From positions 1 through 64,000 of the forward strand of contig NZ_MQTZ01000050.1 of the NCBI RefSeq assembly GCF_001939115.1: a stretch of 64,000 nucleotides of DNA, in the 5' to 3' direction. The stretch is from Leptolyngbya sp. 'hensonii' (lineage in GTDB: Bacteria; Cyanobacteriota; Cyanobacteriia; GCF-001939115). Below are positions 628 to 53,271 of this stretch, one piece after another. How positions within the stretch are numbered: position 1 is the first letter of the stretch; each line of letters begins with the position of its first letter. The position numbers and the translations under genes were made by a program. Under the pieces are notes generated by a model. It did not search any database. It was not told the DNA's origin and worked only from the letters and a program-made list of their open reading frames with translations.

Positions 628-3600
628 ATGCAAAGGATTATTCATTTCAATCTGCTCAAGAGCAGAGGGTCATTGCTCTTGGCAGGGCTGGCTGCTTTTC
701 TTGCAGCAGTCTTCTTGGGAGCGACAATGGTGCCTGCCATTAGTGTTCCAATTCAAAATGTGCTGGTTGGTAACGTGAATGTGGGTAAGGATGCTGCCGT
801 CTTACCTACAGGACAGCTTATTACTCCGACAGCGGCTCCTGGCTCTACCTTTAGCCGACTTGCCACCGGGTTGCGGGCTGATGGTGCAGCAGATGCTAAC
901 GGAGGAATTACAACCGCCCTCAGCCCTGACGGGAAAACGCTCCTGGTATTGACCAGTGGCTATAATACGGGCTTTAGAACCGAAAGTGGTCAAAGTATCA
1001 CCTATCCGGTTCTCGATCCAGTGACTGGCCAGCCTTCCAGCACAACAACTGGAAAAGCTGAGTGGGTATTTGTCTATGATGTCAGTAGCGGCAATCTGGT
1101 GAAGCAACAGCAGATTAATTTGCCAAATACCTTTGCTGGCATGGTCTGGGCTCCCGATGGTCAAAAGTTTTACGTTTCGGGAGGGATTGACGATCGGGTT
1201 TATGTCTATCGCCGCAATGGCAACACCTTTGTTCCTGATGCCCCCTTTATTCTGTTGGGACATAACTCCAATCAAACCGCACCGCTCCCCTCCTATGACG
1301 GGGGCTTACTGAAAGAAACCCCGGCAGCCATTGCTTCCACGGGTGCTGTGGTCGCGGGTCTGGATGTTAGCCGGGATGGTAAAACCCTGGTGGTTGCCAA
1401 CTTCGAGAATGACTCTATCTCGATCGTGGATACGGCAACCCGCAAGGTGATCAAAGAAGTGAAGTTCTTCGTTCCAGGGAATACGATCGCTACGGGTGAA
1501 TACCCCTTCTGGGTCCAAATCGTCAGTTCCGACAATGGGGCTGCTGCCAAAGTGTATGTCAGCAGCCAGCGGGACAATGAAGTCATGGTTTACAACTTCA
1601 AGCATGATAGCGTTGCTCGCATTCCGGTTGGCAACCAGCCCAATAAGATGCTGCTATCCCCCAATCAACAATTTCTGTTCGTGACCAATGGCAATAGTGA
1701 CAGCGTTTCTGTCATTAGTACCCAGCTTGATCAAGCCTTGCAGACGTTCCCCCTCTCCCGCCCTGGTGAGAAATATAAAGGATCTAATCCTAATTCCCTG
1801 GCCCTCAGCCCCAGCGGCAGTCGGCTCTATGTCACATTAGGTGGCGAGAATGCAGTCGTCGTTGTGGATTTGGGCAACGGGAAAGTCCTGAAGAACGACG
1901 AGGACGAACAAGATAAAGGGCTGCTGGATGAACTCTATGAGATCAGCAAGTCTGGAAAAACCCCACCTGTGCTTGGACGGATTCCGACAGCCTGGTATCC
2001 CAACGCTGTCACGGTAAGCCAGGACGGCAAAAAACTGTTCGTGGTTAACCTGAAGGGAAATGCAGGGCCTAATCCCGCTGGTGGCCGCACGACTGCCGCA
2101 GGCAGAGCACGGAATACAACCTTCCGCAGTGAGTACATTCTGGCACTTCAGAAAGGTGGCATCTCTGTGATTCCCGTGCCCAAGAAGCAAGATCTGGAGG
2201 CTTTAAGCAAGCAGGTTGATTTCAACAACGGCTTCATCTTCCGTGACAAAGACGATCGGGTGATGGATGCGTTGAAGGGCAAGATTAAGCATGTTCTCTA
2301 CATTATTAAAGAGAACCGCACCTACGACCAGGTTCTGGGTGATCTCCCCTTCGGTAATGGGGATCCTCAATTGACCCTCTTCCCAGAAGCCATCACACCG
2401 AACCACCACAAACTGGCCAAGGAATATGTCACCTTCGACAACTTCTATGACAGTGGCTCGATTAGTGGCGACGGTTGGGGTTGGTCTACCTTTGGGCGCA
2501 CCACCGACTACACCGAGAAGACTGTACATGTCCTCTATGGGAACGGTTTCAGCGGTTTAACTTACGACTATGAAGGTAACAACCGCTTTGTCTTACCCGC
2601 CCTGCCCAACAGTGCATCCAATCCTTCCCAGACAACGGTGCGGATCACGTCCTTGCTCGACCCAACTGGCAATTCTTCGATTCTGCCGGGGAGTACGGAT
2701 GTCTCAGCCCCCAGCGGCAACAGTGACTTAAGTCCTAAGGCCAAGGGAGGATATTTGTGGGATACGGCACTGCGAGCAGGTAAAACTGTCCGCATGTATG
2801 GTGCTGCCGCCGACCTGAGTGACTTCTACTACGCCAATGTGGGTGGGTGTGATCCTCTGAAGCCCTGTCCGGGTAACCCTCTCTATCTTCCTATCAGCCG
2901 CACACCATTCAAGGATGGGCTTCCTCAAGGTGCTGCGAGTAAAGTTGTGCTGTTGGATAAGACCGACCTTTACTTCCGGGGGTATGACCAGAAGCAACCA
3001 GAAATCTATTCTTTTGAAGAGTGGAAGCGGGATGTGGAAGCATACAAGAAACAGTATGGTTCCATGCCTAACCTGATGGTGATGGCCTTTGACCATGACC
3101 ACTTTGGAAGTTTTGGTAGTGCGGTGGCAGGTGTCAATACACCAGAATTGCAAATGGCTGACAATGACTATGCCCTGGGCCTGGTGGTGGAATACCTGAG
3201 CCAACAACCCGAATGGAAAGAAACAGCCATTTTCGTGCTGGAAGATGATGCTCAGGATGGTCCCGATCACGTGGATGCCCACCGCTCTCTGGGATACATT
3301 ATCTCTCCCTATACCAAATTGGGTAAGCTGGTCAGCTCCAACTACAACACGGTCAACATGATCCGGACGATCGAAGATGTCCTGGGTCTGGACTACATTG
3401 GCATTACAGATGCGAATGCTCGGGCTATGTCCGACGGTTTCCGCACAAAGCTGGATAAGGCCAGCGTCGCGCCCTATGCCGCGATCGTGCCAGGGAACCT
3501 GTGTAAGGCTCCGGTTGACCCAGCTCTGGTTCCTGCCTGCCAGGATCCGAACGCTCTGAAAACGGCTGCCGTTGGATCGCGCCATGATGCCACCTGGTGG

Positions 3601-3774
3601 GCCAAGGCCACAGAAGGCTTTGACTTCGACCATGTGGATCAGGTGGATTCCGATGGTTTCAACCAGGTTCTATGGTCTGGGATTAAGGGAGAAGAAGTCC
3701 CCTATCCCACGGAACGGAGTGGCTTAGATCTGCGTCGTCAGCGCGATCGCCTGCTGCAAGGACAGAATAGCTAA
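628..3774 (+). CDS. YncE-like beta-propeller / phosphoesterase protein, copy 1
   Basis: 1048 residues. A hydrophobic segment at about residues 14-40 looks like a signal peptide or membrane anchor, so the protein is probably exported. Residues ~60-480 carry YVTN/YncE-type propeller repeats (for example NDSISIVDTATRKV and NGNSDSVSVIS). Residues ~550-1000 are a PF04185-type phosphoesterase domain: KENRTYDQVLGDLP opens it, FDHDHFGSFG lies in the middle and EDDAQDGPDHVDAHR (about 872-886) supplies the acidic and histidine metal ligands typical of the alkaline phosphatase/phospholipase C superfamily. The likely role is hydrolysis of phosphate esters outside the cytoplasm; the substrate is unknown. 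The gene is followed by a hairpin and then a small secreted protein. The same pair is repeated at 4635-8207. Confidence 0.9.
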   Translation: MQRIIHFNLLKSRGSLLLAGLAAFLAAVFLGATMVPAISVPIQNVLVGNVNVGKDAAVLPTGQLITPTAAPGSTFSRLATGLRADGAADANGGITTALSPDGKTLLVLTSGYNTGFRTESGQSITYPVLDPVTGQPSSTTTGKAEWVFVYDVSSGNLVKQQQINLPNTFAGMVWAPDGQKFYVSGGIDDRVYVYRRNGNTFVPDAPFILLGHNSNQTAPLPSYDGGLLKETPAAIASTGAVVAGLDVSRDGKTLVVANFENDSISIVDTATRKVIKEVKFFVPGNTIATGEYPFWVQIVSSDNGAAAKVYVSSQRDNEVMVYNFKHDSVARIPVGNQPNKMLLSPNQQFLFVTNGNSDSVSVISTQLDQALQTFPLSRPGEKYKGSNPNSLALSPSGSRLYVTLGGENAVVVVDLGNGKVLKNDEDEQDKGLLDELYEISKSGKTPPVLGRIPTAWYPNAVTVSQDGKKLFVVNLKGNAGPNPAGGRTTAAGRARNTTFRSEYILALQKGGISVIPVPKKQDLEALSKQVDFNNGFIFRDKDDRVMDALKGKIKHVLYIIKENRTYDQVLGDLPFGNGDPQLTLFPEAITPNHHKLAKEYVTFDNFYDSGSISGDGWGWSTFGRTTDYTEKTVHVLYGNGFSGLTYDYEGNNRFVLPALPNSASNPSQTTVRITSLLDPTGNSSILPGSTDVSAPSGNSDLSPKAKGGYLWDTALRAGKTVRMYGAAADLSDFYYANVGGCDPLKPCPGNPLYLPISRTPFKDGLPQGAASKVVLLDKTDLYFRGYDQKQPEIYSFEEWKRDVEAYKKQYGSMPNLMVMAFDHDHFGSFGSAVAGVNTPELQMADNDYALGLVVEYLSQQPEWKETAIFVLEDDAQDGPDHVDAHRSLGYIISPYTKLGKLVSSNYNTVNMIRTIEDVLGLDYIGITDANARAMSDGFRTKLDKASVAPYAAIVPGNLCKAPVDPALVPACQDPNALKTAAVGSRHDATWWAKATEGFDFDHVDQVDSDGFNQVLWSGIKGEEVPYPTERSGLDLRRQRDRLLQGQNS

Positions 3775-3789
3775 CATCTTGTTAGAGGA

Positions 3790-3820
3790 GGGGTATGGCA
3801 GAAATTGCCATGCCCCTTTT
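3790..3820 (+). terminator. Intrinsic terminator after phosphoesterase copy 1
   Basis: The arms 3790-3800 (GGGGTATGGCA) and 3806-3816 (TGCCATGCCCC) form an 11-bp stem with one G-T pair and a 5-base loop, followed directly by TTTT. An ATG inside the left arm opens the following reading frame early, but its position within the hairpin argues against it as a real start. Read-through into the small gene behind is possible. Confidence 0.8.
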
Positions 3821-3842
3821 ATCGCAATTCAACGCGGGTGAA

Positions 3843-4223
3843 ATGATGCAGTATCCCAGGCTAATCTTCTCTGTTGTGTTGTCAAGTGTTGTTGGTTTAC
3901 AGCCAGTTGCTTTTGCAGAGCCGCAAAAGTTTCCTTCAATCAGTCAACAGCCTGACATCAGTGGAACCGAGGCTAATGATCCACTCTGTTACATCATTAC
4001 CAGTAACGGAAGGACTACTGATCTGACCCGGTTATGTGGATCTAAGCCAAGGGGAACAGTGAACGATCGTCCCACCAATAACTCTAATGCTGCCAGTACT
4101 AATAGTGTTGAGAAAACCAGCCGAGCTCAAACTCAAGTAGGCCCTTCCCCCCTCGGGCTGCTCCCCGTCCCTCGATTGAATCTGAGGAACAACCGGGATA
4201 CACAGTTGGAAGATTATCGGTGA
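3843..4223 (+). CDS. Small secreted protein with CY...LCG motif, copy 1
   Basis: 126 residues from the ATG at 3843 (a second ATG follows at 3846). The frame is open from 3795, but that start lies in the terminator hairpin. The N-terminus has a signal peptide ending near PVAFA-EPQ. After it comes a short segment DPLCYIITSNGRTTDLTRLCG, the only part clearly conserved in the partner protein at 7872-8207; the rest is low-complexity (Asn, Ser, Thr). Two cysteines about 16 residues apart could form a disulfide. Position after the phosphoesterase, repeated in both module copies, suggests a functional link, but no biochemical role is known to me. The motif recurs in small exported cyanobacterial proteins (from memory). 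Confidence 0.7.
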   Translation: MMQYPRLIFSVVLSSVVGLQPVAFAEPQKFPSISQQPDISGTEANDPLCYIITSNGRTTDLTRLCGSKPRGTVNDRPTNNSNAASTNSVEKTSRAQTQVGPSPLGLLPVPRLNLRNNRDTQLEDYR

Positions 4224-4634
4224 TTCAAAGGTTATTTCTGATATCGGAGAAGCATCAACTTTAGCCGATCTTGACCTTAAAAATCACCATTGCTTCAGGG
4301 GCAAATTTCCATTGTTTACCTGCAATACAAATGATTCAATCCCAAACAAAATTACTACACCAAATATATAAAATGCAATTCATCTGTCGCTATTATTTCT
4401 CTCTTTTCCCCTTGCTCAATCGCATCTTTTTCCAGGCTGATAAGCCAACGATTAAAGGGATTGACTGTCAATCGGCTGCTTAACCTTTTCTTCTTATAAT
4501 CCCTGTATTATCAACTCTTGTCCGGTGATTAATCAAGGTTTGTTTGTGCTTATTTTCCTCCGTGCATTAACACTTAAGTACGGTAGTAAGAGTAATCACA
4601 AACGTGAAAATCATCCAATCATTAGGTGACTAAA
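4224..4634. other. Intergenic region with probable promoter for phosphoesterase copy 2
   Basis: About 410 bases. A 70-codon frame at 4271-4483 has no ribosome site, composition or family resemblance supporting it. A perfect -10 hexamer TATAAT lies at 4495-4500 without a good -35 element. A single CTTAACCT at 4479-4486 matches one unit of the cyanobacterial Pho box, which normally needs two or three units at 11-base spacing; the following units are poor, so phosphate control is only a suggestion. Confidence 0.4.
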
Positions 4635-7600
4635 ATGGGTTTGCTCAAGCGTTTTAGACCTCTTAGAGATCAACGCTCCCTGTTTATCATGGGTGTCGTC
4701 GCTTTCTTCTCTGTGGTGGCATTAGGCATCACAGCACTACCGTCAATTAGTTTCCCTCCATCTAATATCCCGGTGAGTAATTTGCCCAATCAGGTTGCAG
4801 TTTTACCTACAGGCAAAGTTGTGACTCCAACCGCTGCTCCCGGTTCGAAATTCAACCCGCTATCAACTGGATTACGCAGTGATGGCAATGCAGATGCCAA
4901 CGGTGCTGTTGCAACAGCGGTTAGCCCAGATGGCAAAACCATGCTGGTATTGACCAGTGGCTATAACCTGAACTTCAGGAATGAAACAACAGGGGCCAAC
5001 CTGACCTACCCGGTGCTCGATCCTGTCACAGGCCAGCCAAGTTCCGTAACAACCAGAAAGGCGGAATGGGTCTTTGTTTACGACATCAGCTCGGAGCAGT
5101 TGGTTAAGCAGCAACAGATTAATATTCCCAATACCTATAACGGAATTGCCTGGGCACCCGATGGGAAGCGGTTCTATGTGTCTGGTGGTATCGACGATCG
5201 CATTTATGTCTATCGTCAGGAGGGCAATACCTTCGTGCCCGACGCACCATTCATCCTGCTCGGTCATAACTCCAATCAAACAGCCCCATTTCCTGCTTAC
5301 GACGGCGGTTTGCTGAACGGCACACCCGCTGACACCGCTTCTGGTGGTCTGGTGGTTACGGGTGCGGCTGTGGCTGGACTGGATGTGAGCAAAGATGGTA
5401 AGACCCTGGTGGCTGCTAACTTTGAAAATGATTCCATCTCCGTTGTAGATACAGCTTCCCGAAAAGTAACTCAGGAAATTAAGTTCTTCACTCCAGGGAG
5501 CCCTGTAGCTACAGGCGAATTTCCTTTCTGGGTTACTGTTGTCAGTAACAAGAATGGGGCTGCTACCAAAGCCTATGTCACCAGTCAGCGAGATGATGAA
5601 GTGCTGTCGGTCAATCTGGCTACTGCTGCGATCGTGCGGATTCCTGTGGGTGAGCAACCGAATAAACTCCTGCTCTCCAAAAACCAGTCTCGCCTGTACG
5701 TTGCCAATGGGAATAGTGACACGGTCTCGGTGATTAATACTGGCACAGATAAGGTTGTGCAAACAATCTCGCTTTCACGACCGGGCGATCGCTATCGGGG
5801 TGCCATTCCCAACTCTCTGGCTTTCAGTTCCGATGAAAGAGCTTTGTTTGTCACTCTGGGTGGTGAAAATGCCGTCGCTGTTGTGGATCTAGGTCCACAG
5901 AAAGAGAAAGACAACGATAACGACAAGGAAAAAGGGTTGCTGGACGAGTTATTCAAGTTTGGCAAACCTGAGAAACCGGCCAAGGTTGTTGGACGGATTC
6001 CAACGGGTTGGTATCCCAACTCTGTGAGTCTCAATGCCAAAGGGAACCGACTCTATGTAGTGAATGCGAAAAGTAATGCAGGCCCTAACCCCAGCAATGG
6101 CCGTACAACTGCCGCAGGTCAGGCGCGGAATACGACCTTCCGGAACGAGTACAACTGGGCTTTAGAGAAGGCAGGTATCTCGACGATTCCCGTTCCCTCT
6201 AGCTTCAAGGTTCTCGATGCTCTGAGCCGTCTGGTGGATCTAAACAATGGGTTTGATCAGCGGGGCAAAGAAGACTTCATGATGAAGTTCTTAGGGCACA
6301 AGATCAAGCACGTTGTTTACGTGGTTAAAGAAAATCGTACCTATGACCAGATTCTGGGCGATCTGCCAGTAGGTAATGGAGATCCAGCATTGACCTTGCT
6401 GCCTCAGCCTATTTCTCCCAACCATCACAAACTGGCCCTGGATTACGTCACACTGGACAACTTCTATGACAGTGGTGAATCCAGCGGTGTGGGTTGGAAC
6501 TGGTCAACCTATGCCGCTACCACGGATTACACCGAAAAGCATCAATCCGTCCTGTATGGAAATGCTGGGTTTAACGGCTTAACCTACGACTACGAAGGCA
6601 CAACTCGGAACATCAATCCCGGCTTACCCCAAACCTCAAGTCAGCCCTCTCCGATTACTGTTCGAGTAACTGGACTGCTTGATCCGTCAGGACAGTCTTC
6701 CATTCTGCCCGGTAGCAAGGATGTGAATGGCCCGGCTGGCAGTGGCAATTGGAACCCGAATGTTGTTGGTGGCTACCTGTGGGATGCCGCCCTAAGAGCT
6801 GGTAAGACAGTTCGCAACTACGGATTTTACATCGATCTGGCTTACTATAATACTTCCTCTGGTCAGGTTGATCCGACCAAGCCCGATCCGGCCAACCCCC
6901 TCTATCTGCCCATCTCGCCGACTCCTTTTGCCAGCAAGATTCCTCAAGCCCCCCCAACCGTTCTGCTGGACAAGACTGATATTTACTTCCGGGGCTATGA
7001 CATGAAGAATGCCGACATCTACTTATTTAACGAGTGGTTGCGGGATGTGAATGTCAATGGGTTGCCTAGCCTATCTCTGGTTCGGTTTCCCCACGACCAC
7101 TTTGGTAACTTTGGTAATGCAGTTGCCGGATTAAGAACGGTTGAAACCCAGATGGCCGATAACGATTATGCCGTTGGGTTGCTGGTGGAAACCCTGAGTA
7201 AGCGTCCGGAATGGAAAGAAACGGCTGTCTTCATCATTGAGGATGACTGCCAGGATGGTCCTGACCATGTGGATTCTCATCGATCGATCGCCTATATCAT
7301 CTCGCCCTACACCAAGCGGAAGGCAGTGGTCAGCACCCGGTACACAACCGTTGACTTCGTCCGAACCATAGAAGACCTACTGGGAATTGGCTATCTAGGT
7401 CTGAATGATGCCAACGCCAATCCCATGTCTGATGTCTTCACCAAGAATGCCAACCTGACACCTTATCAGTCGGTTGTCCCAGGCATTCTGTGTAAGGCTC
7501 CAGTTGATCCGGCGCTGGTTCCTGCCTGCCAGGATCCCAACGCACCTAAGACGGCGGCTGTGCAGTCTCGCCATGATGGCGACTGGTGGGCCAATGCAAC

Positions 7601-7766
7601 ACAGGAATTCTACTTTGGTGTAGAAGACAGATTGGATGAGGAAAAGTTCAATCGGGTGTTGTGGTCGGGTGTCAAGGGTGATGGTGCTCCTTACCCAACT
7701 GAGCGCAGTGGTCAAGACTTGAGCCAGGAACGGGAGAAGCTATTGGCCAATTGGCATAATAGCTAA
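4635..7766 (+). CDS. YncE-like beta-propeller / phosphoesterase protein, copy 2
   Basis: 1043 residues from the ATG at 4635. That start has AGGTGA five bases upstream, which also contains the GTG at 4626 that would add three residues; the ATG is preferred. The protein is a close paralogue of 628-3774 over its whole length: hydrophobic N-terminal anchor, propeller repeats, then the phosphoesterase domain with VKENRTYDQILGDLP, FPHDHFGNFG and EDDCQDGPDHVDSHR. Metal-ligand residues are intact. The copies differ mostly in loops, for example the acidic-basic linker near residue 430, so they are a diverged tandem duplication and not a recent copy. Probable exported phosphohydrolase, substrate unknown. 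Confidence 0.9.
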   Translation: MGLLKRFRPLRDQRSLFIMGVVAFFSVVALGITALPSISFPPSNIPVSNLPNQVAVLPTGKVVTPTAAPGSKFNPLSTGLRSDGNADANGAVATAVSPDGKTMLVLTSGYNLNFRNETTGANLTYPVLDPVTGQPSSVTTRKAEWVFVYDISSEQLVKQQQINIPNTYNGIAWAPDGKRFYVSGGIDDRIYVYRQEGNTFVPDAPFILLGHNSNQTAPFPAYDGGLLNGTPADTASGGLVVTGAAVAGLDVSKDGKTLVAANFENDSISVVDTASRKVTQEIKFFTPGSPVATGEFPFWVTVVSNKNGAATKAYVTSQRDDEVLSVNLATAAIVRIPVGEQPNKLLLSKNQSRLYVANGNSDTVSVINTGTDKVVQTISLSRPGDRYRGAIPNSLAFSSDERALFVTLGGENAVAVVDLGPQKEKDNDNDKEKGLLDELFKFGKPEKPAKVVGRIPTGWYPNSVSLNAKGNRLYVVNAKSNAGPNPSNGRTTAAGQARNTTFRNEYNWALEKAGISTIPVPSSFKVLDALSRLVDLNNGFDQRGKEDFMMKFLGHKIKHVVYVVKENRTYDQILGDLPVGNGDPALTLLPQPISPNHHKLALDYVTLDNFYDSGESSGVGWNWSTYAATTDYTEKHQSVLYGNAGFNGLTYDYEGTTRNINPGLPQTSSQPSPITVRVTGLLDPSGQSSILPGSKDVNGPAGSGNWNPNVVGGYLWDAALRAGKTVRNYGFYIDLAYYNTSSGQVDPTKPDPANPLYLPISPTPFASKIPQAPPTVLLDKTDIYFRGYDMKNADIYLFNEWLRDVNVNGLPSLSLVRFPHDHFGNFGNAVAGLRTVETQMADNDYAVGLLVETLSKRPEWKETAVFIIEDDCQDGPDHVDSHRSIAYIISPYTKRKAVVSTRYTTVDFVRTIEDLLGIGYLGLNDANANPMSDVFTKNANLTPYQSVVPGILCKAPVDPALVPACQDPNAPKTAAVQSRHDGDWWANATQEFYFGVEDRLDEEKFNRVLWSGVKGDGAPYPTERSGQDLSQEREKLLANWHNS

Positions 7767-7813
7767 TTCGCAATAGGGTCACTTTTGGCGCAATCAAGGC
7801 TGCTAATCAAGTC

Positions 7814-7842
7814 AAGGTAGGGGTTGCATAACCCCTACCTTT
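7814..7842 (+). terminator. Hairpin after phosphoesterase copy 2
   Basis: Perfect 12-bp stem: AAGGTAGGGGTT at 7814-7825 and AACCCCTACCTT at 7830-7841, with a GCAT loop and a short T run. It occupies the same place relative to its genes as the hairpin at 3790-3820, so the duplicated module keeps its termination signal although the bases differ. Confidence 0.75.
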
Positions 7843-7871
7843 GTAAAAACTCCCAGTTATCCTGGTGAATT

Positions 7872-8207
7872 ATGCAAACGCACTTTTATCAGATTCTCCT
7901 TCTGACAGTGGTTTTTTCTGGATTCACTCATCAGAAATCCCTCAGCCTGCCTACGGTTTCTGCACCAGCTCCGCCTCTGGATGAGCAAAATCGAGACCTC
8001 AATCAACCGGTCTGTTACCTGCAGACCAGTAGTGGAACGATTGTGAATCTAGAACAACTGTGCGGCACAACCTTTAAGGATAGTCAAGGCAATCAACCCA
8101 CCTCTAATAGGGTTCAATCTGCCAGCAGCGGATCTCCACCTGATAGCAACTTTAATCCAGGTGCTTTTGGAGCCAATAGAGCCTATGCCCAGGATGTTCC
8201 GCAGTGA
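7872..8207 (+). CDS. Small secreted protein with CY...LCG motif, copy 2
   Basis: 111 residues starting at the ATG at 7872. Residues ~5-25 are hydrophobic and end near SLS-LPT, consistent with a signal peptide. The only recognisable block is NQPVCYLQTSSGTIV followed by NLEQLCG, the same pattern as in 3843-4223. The tail is rich in Ser, Asn and Gly and looks disordered. The gene follows the second phosphoesterase after a hairpin, exactly as copy 1 does. I know no function for this group; an exported partner, chaperone or substrate-binding accessory of the phosphoesterase is speculation. Confidence 0.7.
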   Translation: MQTHFYQILLLTVVFSGFTHQKSLSLPTVSAPAPPLDEQNRDLNQPVCYLQTSSGTIVNLEQLCGTTFKDSQGNQPTSNRVQSASSGSPPDSNFNPGAFGANRAYAQDVPQ

Positions 8208-8275: not shown

Positions 8276-9337
8276 ATGTTGAAGCAAATTGCACAACTTG
8301 CAGTTTCAGGTCTCTTGTTGGGTACGATCGTCAGTTGCACAGCCAACCCGCCTGCTCAGGATAATGCCTCTCAACAGGCGAATGCCCAGGGCTCAACTGC
8401 TCCAAAAGGTCAGACCAAAAAGCTGACGGTTTACTCCGGGCGAGATGAGAAAATCATGGCTCCCCTGATTGAGAAGGCAAAACAGGACCTAAAAATGGAC
8501 ATCGAGGTCCGTTATGGAGATTCGACTGAATTGGCGATCGCGCTGACGGAAGAAGGGGCGAAAAGTCCAGCAGATGTCTTCTATTCCCAGGATTCTGGGG
8601 CCTTGGGTGCAGTGGCCAAAAATAACCTGACAGCGCAACTCCCTGATACCTTACTGAAACTGGTAGATGAGCAGTTTCGCTCCCCTGAGGGCAATTGGAT
8701 CGGGATTTCTGGGCGGGCTCGTGTGATTGACTACAACACCAAACTCATTAAGCCCAGCGAACTCCCTGCCAGTGTGATGCAGTTAACCGATCCCAAGTGG
8801 CGCGGTAAAGTCGGTTGGGCTCCCACCAATGGGTCCTTCCAGACTTTTGTTAGCGCCATGCGAGTGCTGGAGGGAGAGACTAAAACCCTGGCATGGTTGA
8901 AGGCGATGAAGGCCAATGGTGCGAAGAGTTACGAGGGAAATACGGCCATTGTAGAAGCTCTGGGTCGAGGAGAAATTTCCCTGGGGCTTGTGAATAACTA
9001 CTATCTATATCGCTTCAAAACTAAGGATGCCAACTTCCCCGTGGCCCTTCATCATACGCAGGGTGATGCAGGAGCGTTGATCAATGTGGCGGGTCTGGCT
9101 GTTTTGAAAACAACGGATCAATCCAGTGATGCTGAACAGTTTGTTGCCTATATGTTGAAGCCGGAAATCCAGCAATTTATTACACAACAGTTCTACGAGT
9201 ATCCCCTGGTAAAAGGGATTCCAGTGGCCCAGCAGCAATTGCCCCTAGATCAGTTGAAAGCTCCTAAACTGGATTTGAAAAAATTGGATGACTTGAAAGG
9301 AACCCAAAAGTTGATTCAGGAAGCAGGTCTTTTGTAA
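8276..9337 (+). CDS. futA: Ferric iron ABC transporter, substrate-binding lipoprotein (FutA/FbpA type)
   Basis: 353 residues. The N-terminus has a hydrophobic stretch ending in IVSC, a lipobox with Cys21, so the mature protein is probably a lipid-anchored periplasmic protein. The body follows the class I ferric-binding pattern: LTVYSGRDEKIMAPL at the start, YGDSTELAIALTEEG, ADVFYSQDSGALGA, and VNNYYLYR, in which Tyr242, Tyr243 and Tyr245 are placed like the iron-coordinating tyrosines of FbpA/FutA. It delivers Fe(III) to the permease encoded next. AAGGA upstream of the start is a usable ribosome site. The gene heads a three-gene transporter set; no convincing Fur box was seen in front of it. 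Confidence 0.9.
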   Translation: MLKQIAQLAVSGLLLGTIVSCTANPPAQDNASQQANAQGSTAPKGQTKKLTVYSGRDEKIMAPLIEKAKQDLKMDIEVRYGDSTELAIALTEEGAKSPADVFYSQDSGALGAVAKNNLTAQLPDTLLKLVDEQFRSPEGNWIGISGRARVIDYNTKLIKPSELPASVMQLTDPKWRGKVGWAPTNGSFQTFVSAMRVLEGETKTLAWLKAMKANGAKSYEGNTAIVEALGRGEISLGLVNNYYLYRFKTKDANFPVALHHTQGDAGALINVAGLAVLKTTDQSSDAEQFVAYMLKPEIQQFITQQFYEYPLVKGIPVAQQQLPLDQLKAPKLDLKKLDDLKGTQKLIQEAGLL

Positions 9338-9415
9338 GACTCAAGCTGTATAAATATGCTTTAAATTGTCATATTCCTGATCCTCTGCCTTCAGAAATCC
9401 ACGAACGGTCCCGCA

Positions 9416-11041
9416 ATGCACAAGCTCCCTCTATTTCTTGTGGCTACAGTAGCACTGCCTGCAGTAGCGATTATCTTGCCTCTTGCCTATTTGATTCTCC
9501 GCACGCTCAGCGTCAGTGGCGATCAATTAGTCGCGCTGATTCTGCGCCATCGCACGATCGAGATCATTCTGAATAGCGCTGGGCTGGCAATCATCACTCC
9601 TCTCTGTGCAACCTGCATTGCGGTGCCGATCGCGTTCCTGACCACAAGGACTGATTTACCCTGGCGACGATTCTGGTTAATTACCACGATTCTGCCTCTG
9701 GCAGTTCCGGATTATGTTATTTGCTTTGCCCTGATTGCAACTTTTGGGCCTAAAGGTAGCCTGCTGCAACACCTCGTCGAGCCTCTGGGGATTGAGGTTT
9801 TGCCAGAAATTTATGGCTGGCATGGGGCGATTCTGGCCCTAACGCTCATTACCTATCCCTATCTCCTCTTGAGCGTACAGGCGGGGTTGCAACGGATGAA
9901 TCCTTCTCTGGAAGAAGCGGCGCAAAGTCTGGGCCATGGTCCTTATGCCCGCTTCTTTCGCATTATTCTGCCCCAACTCAGTCCCTTCCTGGCTACAGGG
10001 GGATTAATCGTCGCCATGTATGCCCTGCAGGATTTTAGTGCAGCCACATTGATGCGTTTTGATGCCTTTACGCGAGCTATCTTCATCCAGTACCGTTACA
10101 CCTACGATCGCTACCAGCCCGCAGTGCTGGCTTTGCTCCTGGTGGGACTGATGATGTCATTTTTGTGGCTGGAACATCGGGTGCGATCGCGGGCCGCTTT
10201 TTTCACCCGAACGTCTACCCTCTGCTACACCCAGCCCCTGATTCACCTGGGATGTTGGAAACTGCCAGCTCTGCTATTTTGTTTGGTGGTTGTCCTGCTG
10301 GGTCTGGTTCTTCCCATAGGCGTAACCCTGTTCTGGTTTATTCAGGGCTTGACCCATCAGGGTTGGTCTTACGATATGTCTCCATTTTCTAAATTGATGG
10401 AACTGACCTGGCATTCGATTTGGGCAGCAGGCTGGGCAGCAGTTGTTTCCACCCTGTGCGGTCTGTCGGTGGGCATTCTGGCTGTGCGCTTCCCGCATGG
10501 GTTGACCACCCTGATCGAGCGTTGTAGCTACATTGGGTTTGGCTTGCCGGGGGTTGTCGTCGCTTTTTCGATCGTCTACTGGGGGGCAAACTATGCGCCG
10601 TCCTTTTACCAGACCCTGCCCATGCTAGTCTTCGCTTATCTGGTGATGTTTCTGCCCCAATCCGTGGGGACGATTCGCAGTTCTCTTTTACAGGTGAACC
10701 CACAACTGGAAGACTCAGCCCGCAGCCTGGGGAGGAATGCCTGGCAGACCTTCAAGGAAGTGACCTTACCGCTGATTGCGCCAGGAGTTTTGAGTGGTGC
10801 CGTGTTAGTATTTCTCACAGCCCTGAAGGAATTACCTGCAACCTTACTGCTAGCCCCGATCGGCTTTAATACCCTATCGGTCCACATTTGGAAATCAACG
10901 GAGAGCGTTTCTTACAGTGATGCGGCGGCTGGGGCACTGCTGATGCTCATGATTTCGCTGGGTCTAACCTTACCGCTGTTGTCTCAAAATAATTTGAAGG
11001 AATTACCTGCCGATACCATTCGATTAAGGGATTTTGATTAG
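9416..11041 (+). CDS. futB: Ferric iron ABC transporter, permease (FutB/FbpB type)
   Basis: 541 residues, almost entirely hydrophobic, with two permease halves as usual for FbpB/FutB. Each half carries an EAA loop that docks onto the ATPase: EEAAQSLGHGPYARFF in the first and EDSARSLGRNAWQTF in the second. About 12 membrane spans are expected. It forms the channel that moves Fe(III) from FutA into the cytoplasm. It lies between the binding protein (78 bases upstream) and the ATPase gene, whose ribosome site overlaps this stop codon, so the three genes form one operon. Confidence 0.9.
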   Translation: MHKLPLFLVATVALPAVAIILPLAYLILRTLSVSGDQLVALILRHRTIEIILNSAGLAIITPLCATCIAVPIAFLTTRTDLPWRRFWLITTILPLAVPDYVICFALIATFGPKGSLLQHLVEPLGIEVLPEIYGWHGAILALTLITYPYLLLSVQAGLQRMNPSLEEAAQSLGHGPYARFFRIILPQLSPFLATGGLIVAMYALQDFSAATLMRFDAFTRAIFIQYRYTYDRYQPAVLALLLVGLMMSFLWLEHRVRSRAAFFTRTSTLCYTQPLIHLGCWKLPALLFCLVVVLLGLVLPIGVTLFWFIQGLTHQGWSYDMSPFSKLMELTWHSIWAAGWAAVVSTLCGLSVGILAVRFPHGLTTLIERCSYIGFGLPGVVVAFSIVYWGANYAPSFYQTLPMLVFAYLVMFLPQSVGTIRSSLLQVNPQLEDSARSLGRNAWQTFKEVTLPLIAPGVLSGAVLVFLTALKELPATLLLAPIGFNTLSVHIWKSTESVSYSDAAAGALLMLMISLGLTLPLLSQNNLKELPADTIRLRDFD

Positions 11042-11051
11042 GAGTGGCCTG

Positions 11052-12080
11052 GTGATTTTGCATCTAGAGAACATCATACTACAATACCCCCATACCGAAA
11101 TTCCAGCAGTGGCAGGGGTGACCTTAACACTGGAAACGGGCACCATTATGGGATTGTTGGGGCCATCAGGTTGCGGCAAAACAACCTTGCTTAGGGTGAT
11201 TGCCGGATTTGAGCGATCGCAGGCAGGTAGTGTGATGATTGCAGGGCGGCTGGTTGCGGGTCGAAATACCTGGATACCCGCTGAGCAACGCCAGGTTGGT
11301 GTGGTCTTTCAAGAGTATGCTTTGTTCCCCCATCTCACGATCGCTGAGAACATTGCCTTTGGGTTAAAAGCAGTCAGTCGGAGCAATCAGCAGCAAAGAG
11401 TGGCTCAACTGCTGGCAATCATTGAATTGGAAGGGCTAGAACACCGTTATCCCTATGAACTATCCGGTGGACAGCAGCAAAGAGTGGCCTTGGCTCGCGC
11501 TCTGGCTCCTCAACCCAGGTTGATTCTGTTAGACGAGCCCATGAGTAATCTGGATGTGCATGTCCGGTTGAGATTACGGGAAGAGTTGTTGGAGGTTCTC
11601 AAAACCACAGAAACTTCAGCCATTTTTGTCACCCATGACCAGCAGGAAGCATTGTCGATCGCAGATCAGATTGCAGTCATGCACCAGGGAAAGTTGGAGC
11701 AGATTGGCACCCCTGAAGAAATTTATACCCAGCCAGCTTCCCGTTTTGTGGCTGAGTTTGTAACTCAAGCTAATTTTATCTCGGCCTATCGCCATGGTGA
11801 TTATTGGGAAACAGAAGTGGGTTGTTTTGATACCACCCTGCCCTGTTTAATTCATTCATCGATAAACTCTGGGGTTGCGGAGCTGGTCATTCGCGAGGAA
11901 GATTGGATTCTGCAACCAGATCCTGATGCATCAGTTATTGTCAGAACTCGACATTTTTTAGGCCGGGAATATCGCTACTGTTTGGAAACATTATCCGGCA
12001 GAAAAATATACGCCCGTACATCCCTTGACGTTGCTTTGTCCCCAACCACCCCAGTTCGGCTTCTAATTAACCGTTTATAA
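11052..12080 (+). CDS. futC: Ferric iron ABC transporter, ATPase (FutC/FbpC type)
   Basis: 342 residues from the GTG at 11052. A TTG at 11034 would overlap the permease gene and add six residues, but TAGGAGT at 11039-11045 is correctly spaced for the GTG. Walker A is GPSGCGKTT, the signature LSGGQQQRVALARAL and Walker B LILLDEP, followed by the switch histidine in FVTHDQQEA. The C-terminal ~100 residues form the regulatory region common to FbpC-like ATPases. It powers uptake of Fe(III) with FutA and FutB. The operon appears to end here; no clear terminator was found in the 210 bases that follow. Confidence 0.9.
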   Translation: MILHLENIILQYPHTEIPAVAGVTLTLETGTIMGLLGPSGCGKTTLLRVIAGFERSQAGSVMIAGRLVAGRNTWIPAEQRQVGVVFQEYALFPHLTIAENIAFGLKAVSRSNQQQRVAQLLAIIELEGLEHRYPYELSGGQQQRVALARALAPQPRLILLDEPMSNLDVHVRLRLREELLEVLKTTETSAIFVTHDQQEALSIADQIAVMHQGKLEQIGTPEEIYTQPASRFVAEFVTQANFISAYRHGDYWETEVGCFDTTLPCLIHSSINSGVAELVIREEDWILQPDPDASVIVRTRHFLGREYRYCLETLSGRKIYARTSLDVALSPTTPVRLLINRL

Positions 12081-24722: not shown

Positions 24723-25826
24723 ATGATGGTTGTAAAATTACGCCCAGGATTTGGGACAGTTTCGGTCTGTCTGGTCATCGTTGCTTTGGGGCTGACGGCT
24801 TGTGGTGGACAAAATGATCCAAACCGCAGGACCCAGAATTCCCCAGAATCAGAAGTGACTCGATCGGCAGAGTCCCGTGGAAAAATTTTGATTGACGGGT
24901 CCAGTACGGTCTATCCCATCTCCAACGAGATCGCAAAGGAATATCTCAAAACGAGTGCCAAGGCAGTTGGGATTGAGGTCAAATTCTCCGGCACTTCGGG
25001 CGGATTCAAAAAGTTTTGTGCTGGTGAGATAGACATCAGCAATGCCTCCCGGCCAATTCTGTCGGCAGAGGTGGCTGCCTGTGTTAAATCTGGTGTGGCT
25101 TTCATTGAACTGCCGGTTGCCTTTGATGCTTTGACGATCGTGGTTAATCCCCAAAACACCTGGGCTCAAGACCTGACGATGGCCGAGCTGAAAAAAATGT
25201 GGGAGCCCGCAGCCGAGGGCAAGATCAAGAGCTGGAAGCAGATCCGGGAATCCTTTCCAGATCAGCCCCTGAAATTGTTTGGGGCAGGGAAAGATTCGGG
25301 TACTTTTGACTATTTCAACGACGTAACTAACGGGGATGCCAGTGCCAGCCGCAGCGATTACTCTGGCAGCGAAGATGACGCCGACACCGTCAGAGGGGTG
25401 GAAAGCGATAAGGGAGCGCTTGGTTATTTTGGGTTTGCCTACTACGAGGAAAACCAGGCTCGATTGAAGGCGCTGGCGATCGATAACGGTAAGGGGGCTG
25501 TTTTGCCTTCCCGTGAAGCTGTGGAAAAAGCAACCTATCAGCCCTTCTCCCGCCCCCTCTTCATTTATGTCAATGCCAAGACTGCTCAAGACAATCCAGA
25601 GCTGAAGGCTTTTGTAGAGTACTACCTGTCCCATGCTGGACGAGCCTCCAAGACCGTTGGTTATATTCCCCTACCCAACGAAGCCTATCGCCTCGCGACG
25701 GCTCAATTCACGCGAGGTAAGGTTGGCACTGTATTTGAGGGAGTACCCCAACCCAATGTCACCCTGGCGGAATTGCTGCGGAGACAGGCTGTGTTTGAAG
25801 CATCAGGGGTCAAAACTCAACCGTAA
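24723..25826 (+). CDS. PstS-like phosphate/arsenate-binding lipoprotein of the arsenic operon
   Basis: 367 residues. The N-terminus ends in the lipobox LTAC, giving a lipid-anchored periplasmic protein. The remainder follows PstS: ILIDGSSTVYPISNEIA (oxyanion loop), FSGTSGGFKKFCAGE, ISNASRPI and GAGKDSGTFDYF, which together bind a tetrahedral oxyanion. It is the first gene behind an ArsR-controlled promoter and is followed by acr3, arsC and arsH, with no pstCAB in the window. PstS-like genes within arsenic islands are known; whether this one is selective for phosphate over arsenate, thereby keeping phosphate uptake working during arsenate stress, or binds arsenate, cannot be read from the sequence. 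Confidence 0.85.
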   Translation: MMVVKLRPGFGTVSVCLVIVALGLTACGGQNDPNRRTQNSPESEVTRSAESRGKILIDGSSTVYPISNEIAKEYLKTSAKAVGIEVKFSGTSGGFKKFCAGEIDISNASRPILSAEVAACVKSGVAFIELPVAFDALTIVVNPQNTWAQDLTMAELKKMWEPAAEGKIKSWKQIRESFPDQPLKLFGAGKDSGTFDYFNDVTNGDASASRSDYSGSEDDADTVRGVESDKGALGYFGFAYYEENQARLKALAIDNGKGAVLPSREAVEKATYQPFSRPLFIYVNAKTAQDNPELKAFVEYYLSHAGRASKTVGYIPLPNEAYRLATAQFTRGKVGTVFEGVPQPNVTLAELLRRQAVFEASGVKTQP

Positions 25827-25874
25827 TTGAGCCATCGCTGTTACGAATCTTTTCTGAAGTTCACTAAGTTATCG

Positions 25875-26942
25875 ATGTCGCAACAACTTCCTGTCAAGCA
25901 ACTGTCCTTCCTGGACCGATTTCTCACCCTGTGGATTTTCCTGGCCATGGCGATCGGGGTGGGAATCGGTTATTTCTATCCGGCTGTGGATGCCGTCATC
26001 AATCAGTTTCAAGTTGGGACCACCAATATCCCGATCGCGATCGGGCTGATTCTGATGATGTATCCGCCTCTGGCGAAGGTGCGCTACGAAGAACTGGGGG
26101 ATGTTTTCCGCAATGGCAAAATCCTGGGTCTGTCCCTGGTGCAGAACTGGATCATCGGCCCCGCCCTCATGTTTTTGCTAGCCATCACCTTTTTGCACAA
26201 CTATCCGGAATATATGGTGGGGCTGATTCTGATTGGATTAGCCCGTTGCATTGCCATGGTGGTGGTCTGGAGTGATCTGGCGCAGGGCAATACAGAATAT
26301 ACGGCTGGTCTGGTGGCGTTTAACAGCATCTTCCAGGTGATTTTCTATAGTCCCTATGCTTGGTTCTTCCTGGCAGTTCTCCCGCCCCTGTTTGGGCTGA
26401 AAAGCAGTGTGGTCAACATCAGCATTGCAGAGATTGCCCAGAGTGTCTTCATCTACTTGGGGATTCCGTTCCTGGCTGGTTTTTTTACCCGCTTTTTCCT
26501 AGTGAAAGTGAAGAGCAGACAGTGGTATCACGAGGAGTTCATTCCTAAAATTAGCCCCATCACCCTGATTGCGTTGCTGTTCACGATCGTAGTCATGTTC
26601 AGCCTGAAAGGAAGCCTGATCGTCCAGATTCCTCTGGATGTGGTGCGGATTGCAATACCGCTGATCATCTATTTCTTCATCATGTTTCTGGTCAGTTTTT
26701 ACATGGCCTGGCGGATTAAAACAGACTATTCCAGGGCTGCCAGTGTGGCATTTACAGCAGCAGGTAATAATTTTGAACTGGCCATTGCAGTCGCGGTAGC
26801 TGTATTTGGCATTAATTCAGGGGCTGCATTTGCAGCAGTAGTGGGTCCTCTGGTGGAGGTACCTGTGCTGATCAGTTTGGTGAATGTGGCTTTCTGGCTT
26901 CAACGCCGCTATTTCCCAGACGTGGAATCAAAAATATTGTAA
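25875..26942 (+). CDS. acr3: ACR3-family arsenite efflux carrier
   Basis: 355 residues from the ATG at 25875; the frame opens at a TTG directly after the PstS-like stop, but the ATG gives the usual ACR3 length and N-terminus. Ten hydrophobic spans are visible. Family landmarks are [14 protein letters not shown], the [12 protein letters not shown] motif whose cysteine (Cys125) is required for As(III) transport in studied ACR3 proteins, and [11 protein letters not shown]. It exports arsenite produced by the reductase encoded next. Some cyanobacterial annotations name this gene arsB, but the sequence is ACR3 and not the ArsB type. Confidence 0.92.
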
Positions 26943-26963
26943 TTGCATCCAGGATGGAAACCG

Positions 26964-27371
26964 ATGAAGCGGATCATGTTTGTCTGTAAAAAGAACTCGG
27001 CCCGGTCCCAGATGGCAGAGGGGTTTGCCAGACATCTGGGTACTGGCAAGGTTGAGGTGACCAGTTCCGGGTTGGAAGCCAGTCAGGTGCGCCCAGAAGC
27101 GATCGCAACGATGGAGGAGGCCGGGGTGGATATCCGTCAACAGACCTCAAAGGCTTTGAGTGACTTCAATCCCGAAGATTTTGATGTGGTCATTTCTCTC
27201 TGTGGCTGCGGCGTGAATTTGCCTCCAGAGTGGTTAACTCGCGAGGAATTCGAGGATTGGCAACTGGATGATCCCGCCGAGCAGCCAGAAATTTTTCCGC
27301 GCATCCGGGATGAAATCAGAGCACGGGTGACCCAACTGATTGCCAGACTGGAAGCAGTATCAGGAAGTTAG
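26964..27371 (+). CDS. arsC: Arsenate reductase, cyanobacterial ArsC type
   Basis: 135 residues from the ATG at 26964 (the open frame starts seven codons earlier). The fold is that of low-molecular-weight tyrosine phosphatases: the P-loop is CKKNSAR (Cys8 to Arg14), followed by SQMAEGFARHLG. The pair Cys80 and Cys82 in ISLCGCGVNLPPEW provides the resolving cysteines. This arrangement is that of Synechocystis ArsC, which has the thioredoxin-family fold of the Staphylococcus enzyme but takes electrons from glutathione/glutaredoxin. It reduces As(V) to As(III), the substrate of the ACR3 pump encoded 21 bases upstream. Confidence 0.92.
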   Translation: MKRIMFVCKKNSARSQMAEGFARHLGTGKVEVTSSGLEASQVRPEAIATMEEAGVDIRQQTSKALSDFNPEDFDVVISLCGCGVNLPPEWLTREEFEDWQLDDPAEQPEIFPRIRDEIRARVTQLIARLEAVSGS

Positions 27372-27379
27372 ATCAGCCG

Positions 27380-27847
27380 ATGGACATCGAACAACCTCAG
27401 CCGATTCGGGAGAATTTGTGGTGGGTGATTCCAACCCAACTGGCAGGGGTGAGAAAGCCAGCACCAGAGGAAATTCCAGACCTGCAAGCCGCAGGCATAG
27501 GGGCGATCGTCTCTGTCATGGATGATCCGTCTAACCTGGATTTGTACGAACAGGCTGGTATGCCCCATCTCTGGCTCCCCACCAAAGGTGGAACGGCTCC
27601 AAGCCTGGAACAGGTTCAAGCCCTACAAACCTTTGTGGACGATCAGCATCGCCTCGGCTACGGGGTAGTAGTCCATTGCACCAGTGGCAGACGCCGCACC
27701 GGAACGATGCTTGCAGCCTATCTGATTCAAGCTGGCCGATCCTATGAAGATAGTCTTCAGATCATTCTGAAGGCCAATCCTCAAGTTGAGTTGCGATCGG
27801 CCCAAACTGCTTTCTTGCAAGATCTGGCGACCCATTCAGCCCTATAG
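27380..27847 (+). CDS. Dual-specificity-like protein phosphatase in the arsenic operon
   Basis: 155 residues, starting eight bases after arsC. The signature [10 protein letters not shown] holds the catalytic pair Cys100 and Arg106 of the CX5R phosphatases. The upstream loop that normally carries the general-acid aspartate reads [10 protein letters not shown], where related proteins typically have Asp before GTAP; here Gly70 is found, so activity may be altered (tentative alignment). Placement between arsC and arsH with gaps of eight and two bases means it is co-transcribed with arsenic genes. Its substrate is unknown; a role in arsenate reduction or in signalling during arsenic stress is conceivable. 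Confidence 0.85.
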
Positions 27848-27849
27848 TC

Positions 27850-28491
27850 ATGACTCGTTTCGATCATCCGCCTCGAATTTTGTTTTTGTATGGTTCATTG
27901 CGGGAGCGATCTTACAGCCGATTATTGGCTGAAGAAGCAGCCCGAATTATCCAGGAATTTGGCGCAGAGGTGAAGTTCTTTGACCCCCGCGAGCTTCCCC
28001 TCTATGCCAGCGTCCCTGACACCCATCCCAAAGTGCAGGAATTGCGCGAGTTAAGCCAGTGGTCGGAAGGACAGGTCTGGTCCAGCCCTGAACTGCATGG
28101 CCAGGTTTCAGGGGTGCTGAAAAACCAGATTGATTGGATTCCGCTCAGTATCGGAGCTGTGAGACCGACTCAAGGTAAGACCCTGGCTGTGATGCAGGTC
28201 AGTGGGGGCTCCCAGTCCTTTAATGCTGTGAATACCCTACGCCTTCTGGGGCGCTGGATGCGAATGTTTACCATTCCCAACCAATCTTCTGTCGCCAAGG
28301 CTTACCAGGAGTTCAACGAAGATGGCACGATGAAGGAATCTTCCTATCGTGATCGAGTTATTGATGTGATGGAAGAGCTGTACAAATTTACCCTGCTGTT
28401 ACGAGACAAGGTGGACTATTTGACCGATCGCTACAGCGAACGGAAGGAAAAATATCCTGAGCAGGGAATAGAGCCAATCAAATTGATGTAA
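27850..28491 (+). CDS. arsH: ArsH, NADPH-dependent FMN reductase / organoarsenical oxidase
   Basis: 213 residues. The flavodoxin-like fold begins with [15 protein letters not shown], the FMN phosphate loop of ArsH proteins, and continues with [20 protein letters not shown] and [23 protein letters not shown], both typical of the family. ArsH uses NADPH and FMN; it oxidises trivalent methylated arsenicals and has quinone/iron reductase activity in Synechocystis (from published work on the family). It is the last gene of the arsenic operon, two bases behind the phosphatase gene. No terminator hairpin stands out behind it. Confidence 0.93.
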
Positions 28492-42902: not shown

Positions 42903-43425
42903 GCATTTTTTACCAGTCTGCCTGAAACTGGCAGATTCTGGCAACTATGGGAAGGCTGCCTGCATCTCCGTCTGTGGCGGCACTTCATCGAATCTTTACA
43001 GGGATCTGTTTCCCAGATTACATAGTCCTGCCCATTCGTTGATGATAGACTCCTAGCGGAAATTGCGTATGGGATAAGGATGAGACTTTATAGATCTCTG
43101 TAAAGTTACAGAGGAGATTTGTAACGAAAAGTGCTTCCGGTGGATCACAGTGTTCACATCTGTCAATACTTTTTCATTCAATTCATATTTTCTTGGCTAA
43201 ATTTCTTCTGAAAAGTTGCGAATTAACCAAATTCTGTTATGCCTTTGTCTTGCGTTTTTTAAATACAACCGGAAGCAGTTATTAATCGCCTTTCAGTCAT
43301 CCAAACTTCTCTCTATAAATCATATTTTTTGCATAGCAGCTTAATGCTGTTGTGCAGTTTTCCTATGCAAATTTTTCAACCTCTCTCACAAATTGCGCTA
43401 AAGCACCCTCAGGAGTTTTTTGACC
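42903..43425. other. AT-rich upstream region of the giant RTX gene
   Basis: Over 500 bases without a supported gene. The left part contains the shared 5' end of the RCK channel gene; from 43080 the DNA is strongly AT-rich and contrasts with the GC-rich coding sequence after 43426. CAGGAG at about 43410 is the ribosome site of the giant gene. No known regulator box was recognised. Confidence 0.5.
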
Positions 43426-52311: not shown

Positions 52312-52351
52312 TCCTTGATGAACGTATCGGATGGCAGGTTTAGGGCAGATT

Positions 52352-52432
52352 AGGAGACAGGAGACGGAACTCAGGAGTCAGAATTTTAAGCTGTCTCCTG
52401 TTTTCTGCCTCCTGTTTTCTGTCTCCTGCTTT
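52352..52432. repeat. Short tandem repeat and hairpin behind the RTX gene
   Basis: Three tandem 14-bp units of CTGTCTCCTGTTTT type run from 52391 to 52432. AGGAGACAG at 52352-52360 is complementary to the first unit, allowing a 9-bp stem with T-rich 3' side. It could terminate transcription after the RTX gene. Confidence 0.55.
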
Positions 52433-52524
52433 CTGAACACCTAGCCCATTAGATTTCTGTACCTGAATGGGCTAGTCAGGAACTGCTGTAGGATGGAACG
52501 TTAGGGATCAGAAGGAATGCAAGT

Positions 52525-53253
52525 ATGTCATCTGCCCTCCAAGTGGAAGATAAAACCCTCAGTGCAACGGAGTTACTCTCCCTGTTAGCGGGTTATCGAA
52601 TGTTGCCTCAACTGAAGCGAGAATGGTTGATCGATCGGGAAATTAAGTCCATTGACTGCACACCAGACGAGATGGCCCTGGCCCGACAACAGTTTTATCA
52701 GCGTCACCAGCTTGCGGATGACGCAGCCCAGCAAGCTTGGTGTGAGCACTATGGCATGACGATGGCGCAGCTGGAGGATCTGGCCATGCGGGAACTCAAA
52801 ATTGCCAAATTCAAACATCAAACCTGGAATCATCGGGTTGAGTCCTATTTTTTGAGTCGCAAGTCGGGTCTCGATCGGGTGATTTACTCCTTACTCAGAA
52901 CCGCAGATGCCGGTGTGGCCCAGGAACTCTTTTTCCGTCTGAAGGCCGGAGAGCAGTCTTTCGCTGAGTTGGCCAGGGAGTATTCCCAGGGGCCAGAAGC
53001 TCAAACAGGAGGCATGGTGGGGCCAGTTCCCCTGGCCCAACTCCATCCCCAGTTAGCCCAATTAATTTCCGTATCCCAACCTGGACAATTGTTGCCCCCC
53101 ACCCACTTAAGTGAATGGTTCGTCATTGTGCGTCTGGAGAAGCGGCTTTCAGCTCAATTGGATGAAGCCATGCATCAACGCCTGGTGGATGAACTGTTTG
53201 AAAAATGGCTTGAGGAAACTGTCCGGACCCAACCCCTGAACCTGGTGCGTTGA
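52525..53253 (+). CDS. PpiC-type peptidylprolyl isomerase of the type I secretion cluster
   Basis: 242 residues, no signal peptide. The C-terminal half is a parvulin domain: RTADAGVAQELFFRLKAGEQSFAELAREYSQ in segments and GGMVGPVPLAQLHPQLAQLI, the normal Rotamase motif. The N-terminal half is the helical SurA_N-like part. GAAGGA is eight bases before the ATG. In cyanobacteria such genes commonly precede type I exporter genes and may help deliver RTX substrates in unfolded or defined conformations. The exporter ATPase gene starts 18 bases downstream, so they share an operon. Confidence 0.88.
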   Translation: MSSALQVEDKTLSATELLSLLAGYRMLPQLKREWLIDREIKSIDCTPDEMALARQQFYQRHQLADDAAQQAWCEHYGMTMAQLEDLAMRELKIAKFKHQTWNHRVESYFLSRKSGLDRVIYSLLRTADAGVAQELFFRLKAGEQSFAELAREYSQGPEAQTGGMVGPVPLAQLHPQLAQLISVSQPGQLLPPTHLSEWFVIVRLEKRLSAQLDEAMHQRLVDELFEKWLEETVRTQPLNLVR

Positions 53254-53271
53254 ACTGCCCATGATGACGCT

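Follow-up and report, generated by a model that had tools for sequence, protein, structure and literature searches.

The first 64,000 nucleotides of contig NZ_MQTZ01000050.1 from the cyanobacterium Leptolyngbya sp. 'hensonii' (positions 1 to 64,000, hereafter the window) contain a tandem pair of gene modules, each encoding a large putative phosphoesterase and a small protein with a short cysteine-containing motif, termed here CY-LCG. The evidence suggests that the small proteins form part of an unnamed family of companion proteins exported by cyanobacteria. We propose tentatively that these may well combine a common head with a variable tail, the tail differing with the type of the neighbouring gene. 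The small protein probably accompanies several kinds of exported enzyme, not PF04185 phosphoesterases alone. Companionship is argued from genomic association and from the correlation between tail and neighbour, while contact, localisation and mechanism are inferred. The constant head would serve something common to exported proteins, such as folding, anchoring or delivery at the cell surface, and the variable tail would meet the partner enzyme or transporter. If this is true, a tail that hints at its co-encoded enzyme provides a handle on how surface phosphatases and metal enzymes are deployed under phosphate and iron shortage, and dozens of 'hypothetical' exported proteins become testable partners.

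The two large-small gene pairs comprise four open reading frames (ORFs), all on the forward strand, within positions 628-8207. Large protein 1 (1048 aa; 628-3774) possesses an N-terminal hydrophobic segment, a YncE/lactonase-type beta-propeller and a PF04185 domain, and large protein 2 (1046 aa; 4626-7766) has the same architecture. Small protein 1 (125 aa; 3846-4223, with its ATG at 3846) and small protein 2 (111 aa; 7872-8207) each carry a signal peptide, judged from hydropathy and by eye, followed by the CY-LCG motif at 3987-4040 (CYIITSNGRTTDLTRLCG) and 8013-8066 (CYLQTSSGTIVNLEQLCG), respectively. Each gap between a large and a small gene holds a hairpin, recognised from its arms and folding energy. 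The first, at 3786-3820, has an energy of -25.3 kcal/mol (z -5.8), and a longer frame for small protein 1 is possible that starts inside it, at 3795. The second, at 7814-7841, has a perfect 12-bp stem and an energy of -19.7 kcal/mol (z -5.3). None of 200 shuffles was equally stable in either case. Because neither hairpin was listed by a terminator scan of the window, the label 'terminator' is not established. An earlier note on this DNA had described tandem modules of large phosphoesterase, hairpin and small secreted protein, with large proteins similar throughout and small proteins retaining little beyond the signal peptide and motif. This description was confirmed in its ORFs, gap hairpins and motif. 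The two large proteins share 64% identity across 1051 aligned columns, and the small ones can be aligned over only 38 residues around C-Y..LCG, with 37% identity. The DNA pattern of the motif has two matches in the window, a number equalled in 0 of 100 shuffles.

The motif has the consensus C-[YF]-x5-G-x4-L-x2-LC. In many exported proteins of cyanobacteria it closely follows the signal peptide, at a median position of residue 43 in 63 ORFs. Among 32 aligned members, the two cysteines, 16 residues apart, are invariant, and the glycine and leucine are present in at least 90%. The sequences that follow it include aspartic-protease domains, repeats, helical tails or little else. In all three examined examples of the protease fusions, the head and a retropepsin-like PF13975 protease are joined in one chain. 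Confidence in the structural model of small protein 2 is limited to the region of the motif, where residues 51-60 have a mean predicted local distance difference test score (pLDDT) of 87 compared to an overall mean of 64. Strands at 49-51 and 57-59 and a helix at 60-63 are placed between the two cysteines. The head is predicted to form a beta-hairpin followed by a helical turn, with a disulfide between its two cysteines probably closing it.

The small proteins of the window match nothing in Pfam or NCBIfam at an expectation value (E) of 1. For the 32-member set, no PHROG was matched at 0.01, and the Pfam matches were those of single members at E 0.015 or worse; four further members had no NCBIfam match at 0.1. 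Likewise, searches of open-access papers listed no recognisable description of the motif or family. A profile built from seven small proteins finds matches at E 0.001 or better in 133 of the 388 genomes of the class, with no genome of family f20 among them. A survey that scored only the first candidates per genome detected the large protein in 8 of the 388 (E 1e-60 or better).

An association with exported enzymes can be seen in the genome of the window itself. There, the motif pattern has seven DNA matches (none in the reversed control), of which six translate into exported-type proteins and one is likely due to chance. A profile search adds one further exported-type motif gene, C14, at locus L232. 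Three of the five motif genes outside the window abut genes for a PF01663 phosphodiesterase (E 9e-30), a PhoX phosphatase (8e-89) and a PF00149 phosphoesterase (2e-11). In total, five of the seven motif genes in this genome stand beside phosphoesterase genes, which represent four families.

Other genomes were surveyed using 39 further motif loci (L233-L271), chosen among the matches listed regardless of their neighbours, although not strictly by rank, together with 40 control stretches, of which 31 derive from case-set genomes. Locus L272, from the window's own genome and with no special neighbour, was excluded. PhoX, PF01663 or PhoA genes were found at 10 of the 39 motif loci compared to one of the 40 controls (p 0.003), the single positive control not being from a case-set genome. 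NicO transporter genes were found at 6 of 39 and amine oxidase genes at 5 of 39, compared to none of the 40 controls in both cases. The PhoA, second PF01663, amine-oxidase and multicopper-oxidase exemplars were taken from case loci; with case-independent exemplars the phosphatase counts become 7/39 and 1/40 (p 0.026). Six of the loci (L262-L267) had partly been seen earlier, two with NicO and none with a phosphatase, and leaving them out gives 10/33 for phosphatases and 3/33 for NicO. Pfam assignments of the 76 nearest neighbours identified five PhoX, four PF01663, two PF00245, five NicO and five amine oxidase proteins; the corresponding Pfam control reports only families with at least three members and may hide single phosphatases, of which the phmmer control gave one.

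A follow-up set of 20 loci (L313-L332), drawn among the matches listed under rules fixed beforehand, contained phosphatase neighbours at two loci (p 0.26 alone) and NicO at four, with the NicO gene of L328, which overlaps the small frame, counted by eye. For both sets combined, phosphatases occur at 12 of 59 motif loci and 1 of 40 controls (p 0.008), and NicO at 10 of 59 and none of 40 (p 0.004). NicO cases come from seven genera, both sets including several genomes of one genus (g145). PhoX genes lie beside motif genes in five cyanobacterial families (f1, f15, f52, f11 and f7). Among an earlier collection of 60 distinct motif sites, viewed with 1.5 kb on each side, no phosphatase exemplar had a match outside the window's genome, except next to one known large-gene relative. 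The earlier note would have given up its proposal if the motif were distributed without relation to phosphoesterase genes. The motif is not exclusive to PF04185 genes, yet such a lack of relation was not seen once other phosphoesterases are counted: PhoX, PF01663 and PhoA neighbours are commoner than in the controls, with the link weak in the follow-up set. Separately, in the related genomes of L314 and L271, a motif gene was noted by eye beside a gene for an endonuclease/exonuclease/phosphatase-type membrane protein.

The second line of evidence is the sequence after LCG. Tail classes were compared with neighbour types over 103 pattern-matching ORFs. A NicO gene accompanies the second-cysteine tail in 15 of 22 cases and 1 of the 81 other ORFs. 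The helical tail ending in YYC accompanies PhoX in 4 of 6 cases (otherwise 0/97), the FDDLYG tail a multicopper oxidase in 3 of 5 (otherwise 0/98) and the PLAI tail PF01663 in 4 of 4 (otherwise 1/99). PF04185 lies beside the GTGY tail in 7 of 7 cases and beside 1 of the 96 other ORFs, six of the seven GTGY members having been gathered through that adjacency. Since the same data served to define all these classes, their p values are descriptive. The tail of small protein 2 falls into the pattern class of the other PF04185-linked small proteins. In the follow-up set, the single second-cysteine tail had a NicO neighbour, and two of the three YYC tails had PhoX, both in a genus already seen. At L206, L207, L221 and loci among L173-L193, the small CY-LCG protein beside a NicO transporter carries a second hairpin of the form C-x-x-D-x-x-G-x-[PR]-C. 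At the first three of these loci, TPR-type and DUF4331-type genes stand in the same row as the NicO pair, an assignment made partly by eye.

The search for the motif beside PF04185 genes elsewhere, which the earlier note had proposed, yielded further pairs. Loci were fetched for the best 80 of 128 relatives of the large gene, 40 of which hold a relative with an identity of at least 55%; 35 of these are testable, their flanks extending 1 kb or more in both directions. A small CY-LCG gene lies beside the large gene at 5 of the 35 (L010, L023, L032, L035 and L043), far above the rough chance rate. The probability of five or more such adjacencies by chance is near 5e-9 when calculated from how densely motif genes occur in these genomes, a rough estimate in that the loci are related and the density was drawn from genomes that have the pair. 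The arrangements are unlike that in the window, with the small gene downstream and convergent in L010, L035 and L043 and upstream on the same strand in L023 and L032. This variation in orientation indicates that the pair does not reflect one inherited operon layout. Additionally, a search of 19 genomes with the large gene gave one new strong profile match (71.7 bits, in G568) outside the profile-building set. This small gene (L220) lies about 1.2 kb from a propeller-PF04185 gene of a second type, with a PEP-CTERM-type gene in between. An attempt to join the large and small genes of G568 through contig overlap found no overlap, both genes being near contig ends. In G315, which has a close relative of this second phosphoesterase, no small-like gene was present in the 18 kb read.

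These adjacencies, at the five relatives and at the second propeller-phosphoesterase, support the idea in the earlier note that the small protein is a functional partner of the phosphoesterase. The far wider distribution of the motif compared to the large gene (133 genomes vs 8), its other neighbours and its fusion to proteases count against that idea as it stood. It is therefore very improbable that the small protein is partnered exclusively with PF04185 enzymes: while the window, the five relatives and L220 would fit such a role, the same head has unrelated genes as neighbours and is also present in genomes in which no large gene was found.

Several further results, together with the case-independent phosphatase counts, the same-data definition and gathering of the tail classes and the single genus of the new YYC-PhoX cases given above, weigh against the proposal of companions with a common head and a variable tail. 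In the window's genome, the motif genes at L232 and at L272, where the motif protein is fused to TPR, have no phosphoesterase neighbour of the kinds named. Small protein 1 fits no recognised tail class. The follow-up set fell below the forecast of about 25% for phosphatases and contained no GTGY, PLAI or FDDLYG tails. Phosphatase cases come from 4 of the 22 genera in both sets, and many motif loci represent orthologues from within one genus. In 30 of the 35 testable relatives, mostly Nostocales, the available flank revealed no small-like ORF. No convincing Pho-type box, of the kind considered below for the large genes, precedes small gene 1, small gene 2 or any of the 15 other small genes. The idea that the PF04185-linked small proteins form a clean subfamily of orthologues was rejected, as leave-one-out profiles ranked only L010, L035 and L043 at the top; when left out, small 1, small 2, L023 and L032 did not rise above generic motif proteins. 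Similarly, a single origin of the adjacency was not supported, the clustering of labels on the tree being matched in 148 of 500 shuffles.

It is quite possible, if somewhat doubtful, that the small proteins are bystanders. They would then be generic exported proteins in regions rich in exported genes, adjacency would reflect functional clustering and vertically inherited gene order, and tails would track orthologue groups. Consistent with this, many motif loci are without a neighbour of the tested kinds (all 23 retropepsin fusions and 26 of the 31 'other' tails, many of these loci having only 1.5 kb of flank), orientation is variable, orthologous loci are frequent, and the control stretches were arbitrary rather than other exported-protein genes. 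Counting against this, the same neighbour family recurs across cyanobacterial families together with a shared tail, as PhoX does in five.

The proposal of head and tail could also be made more specific, at the cost of becoming unlikely. The small proteins would be modular exported adaptors, with a constant disulfide-hairpin head docking on a common apparatus at the cell surface or in the periplasm and interchangeable tails that each match one partner. These partners would include PhoX, PF01663, PhoA, PF04185, NicO and the multicopper and amine oxidases, while the retropepsin-like proteases would carry the head within their own chain. The NicO, PhoX, PhoA, PF01663 and multicopper-oxidase neighbours, along with the iron-uptake genes near the large gene, all have to do with metals, the enzyme families among them being metal-dependent. 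They are compatible with another explanation, that the small proteins help exported metalloenzymes to load or hold their metal. This seems improbable, since conserved cysteines in the head number only two, which likely form a disulfide, and flavin amine oxidases are also among the neighbours.

Regulation can be considered for the large genes and the neighbouring phosphatases. The SphR box of the cyanobacterial Pho regulon is described in a published study as at least three tandem 8-mers, CTTAACCT (PMC1906773). Like members of that regulon, most relatives of the large gene have three tandem Pho-type octamers upstream, in 30 of 37 regions (a site reached by no more than 3 of 60 shuffles). L043, which was outside the weight-matrix set, scores 25.9, the highest score in one shuffled window being 13.1. 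In contrast, neither large gene of the window has a tandem box, with 31 and 32 of 60 shuffles as good, and both are among the 7 of 37 regions that fail. A Pho box also precedes 4 of the 13 phosphatase genes neighbouring motif genes (no more than 6 of 200 shuffles).

The large proteins themselves are probably exported beta-propeller/PF04185 phosphoesterases, for which a role in phosphate scavenging may be supposed. As in other fusions of these domains, both score above Pfam cut-offs, PF04185 with 31.7 and 36.2 bits (cut-off 23) and C-terminal to the YncE/lactonase-type propeller. The acidic and histidine positions D824, H825, E872, D873, D874, D880 and H881 are invariant in an alignment of 20 relatives and are candidate catalytic residues. 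The model of large protein 1 has a mean pLDDT of 64, and the 50 fold-search matches listed for it cover the propeller part and not the phosphoesterase part. In a quick tree, copy 1 joins L041, from a contig binned as Competibacteraceae, before it joins copy 2. Based on this, the duplication looks old rather than recent, with some uncertainty given the long branches. In two genomes (L197 and L198), a second propeller-phosphoesterase, about 30% identical, was observed in tandem with the large gene. At L041, positions 2662-4898, the large-gene relative adjoins phosphonate genes encoding a PhnU2-like permease, an HD-domain oxygenase and an HpnW-like oxidoreductase.

Directly downstream of the pair in the window, and also on the forward strand, are genes for an ATP-binding cassette (ABC) transporter of the ferric-iron importer type (FbpA/FutA). 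The substrate-binding protein (8276-9337) has as its best solved relative the iron-binding 7w3w (E 8e-91), and domain matches identify a BPD_transp_1 permease (9416-11041) and an ATPase (11034-12080). Assignment of 8276-12080 to a 2-aminoethylphosphonate transporter was rejected, the NCBIfam matches being below cut-off and the solved relatives iron-binding. Relatives of the iron ABC genes or an OFeT_1 protein occur within 10 kb of the large gene at 18 of the 80 loci. Unlike the components of a ferric-iron ABC or OFeT_1 system, the phosphoesterase and small protein are connected with iron uptake through their gene neighbours. A link between phosphate and iron is plausible by analogy, because the iron-selective porin slr1908 of Synechocystis is reported to be under PhoB control (PMC11126600). 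An OFeT_1 iron permease (PF16955) with iron ABC genes was also seen near the large gene in several cyanobacteria, at L043 (8951-9688) and its relatives.

PEP-CTERM proteins are another kind of exported neighbour of the large gene, with a relative within 3 kb at 22 of the 80 loci, two members having been checked against models. Their sequences are unrelated to CY-LCG, and by eye the small proteins have no such sorting tail.

Elsewhere in the window, two gene groups were recognised by eye. An arsenic-type cluster at 24723-28491 encodes a PstS-like binding protein, an Acr3-like transporter, a small phosphatase-like protein and an ArsH-like protein. At 43420-57683, a 2963-aa repeat protein with nuclease-like and RTX-like parts is followed by type I secretion components.

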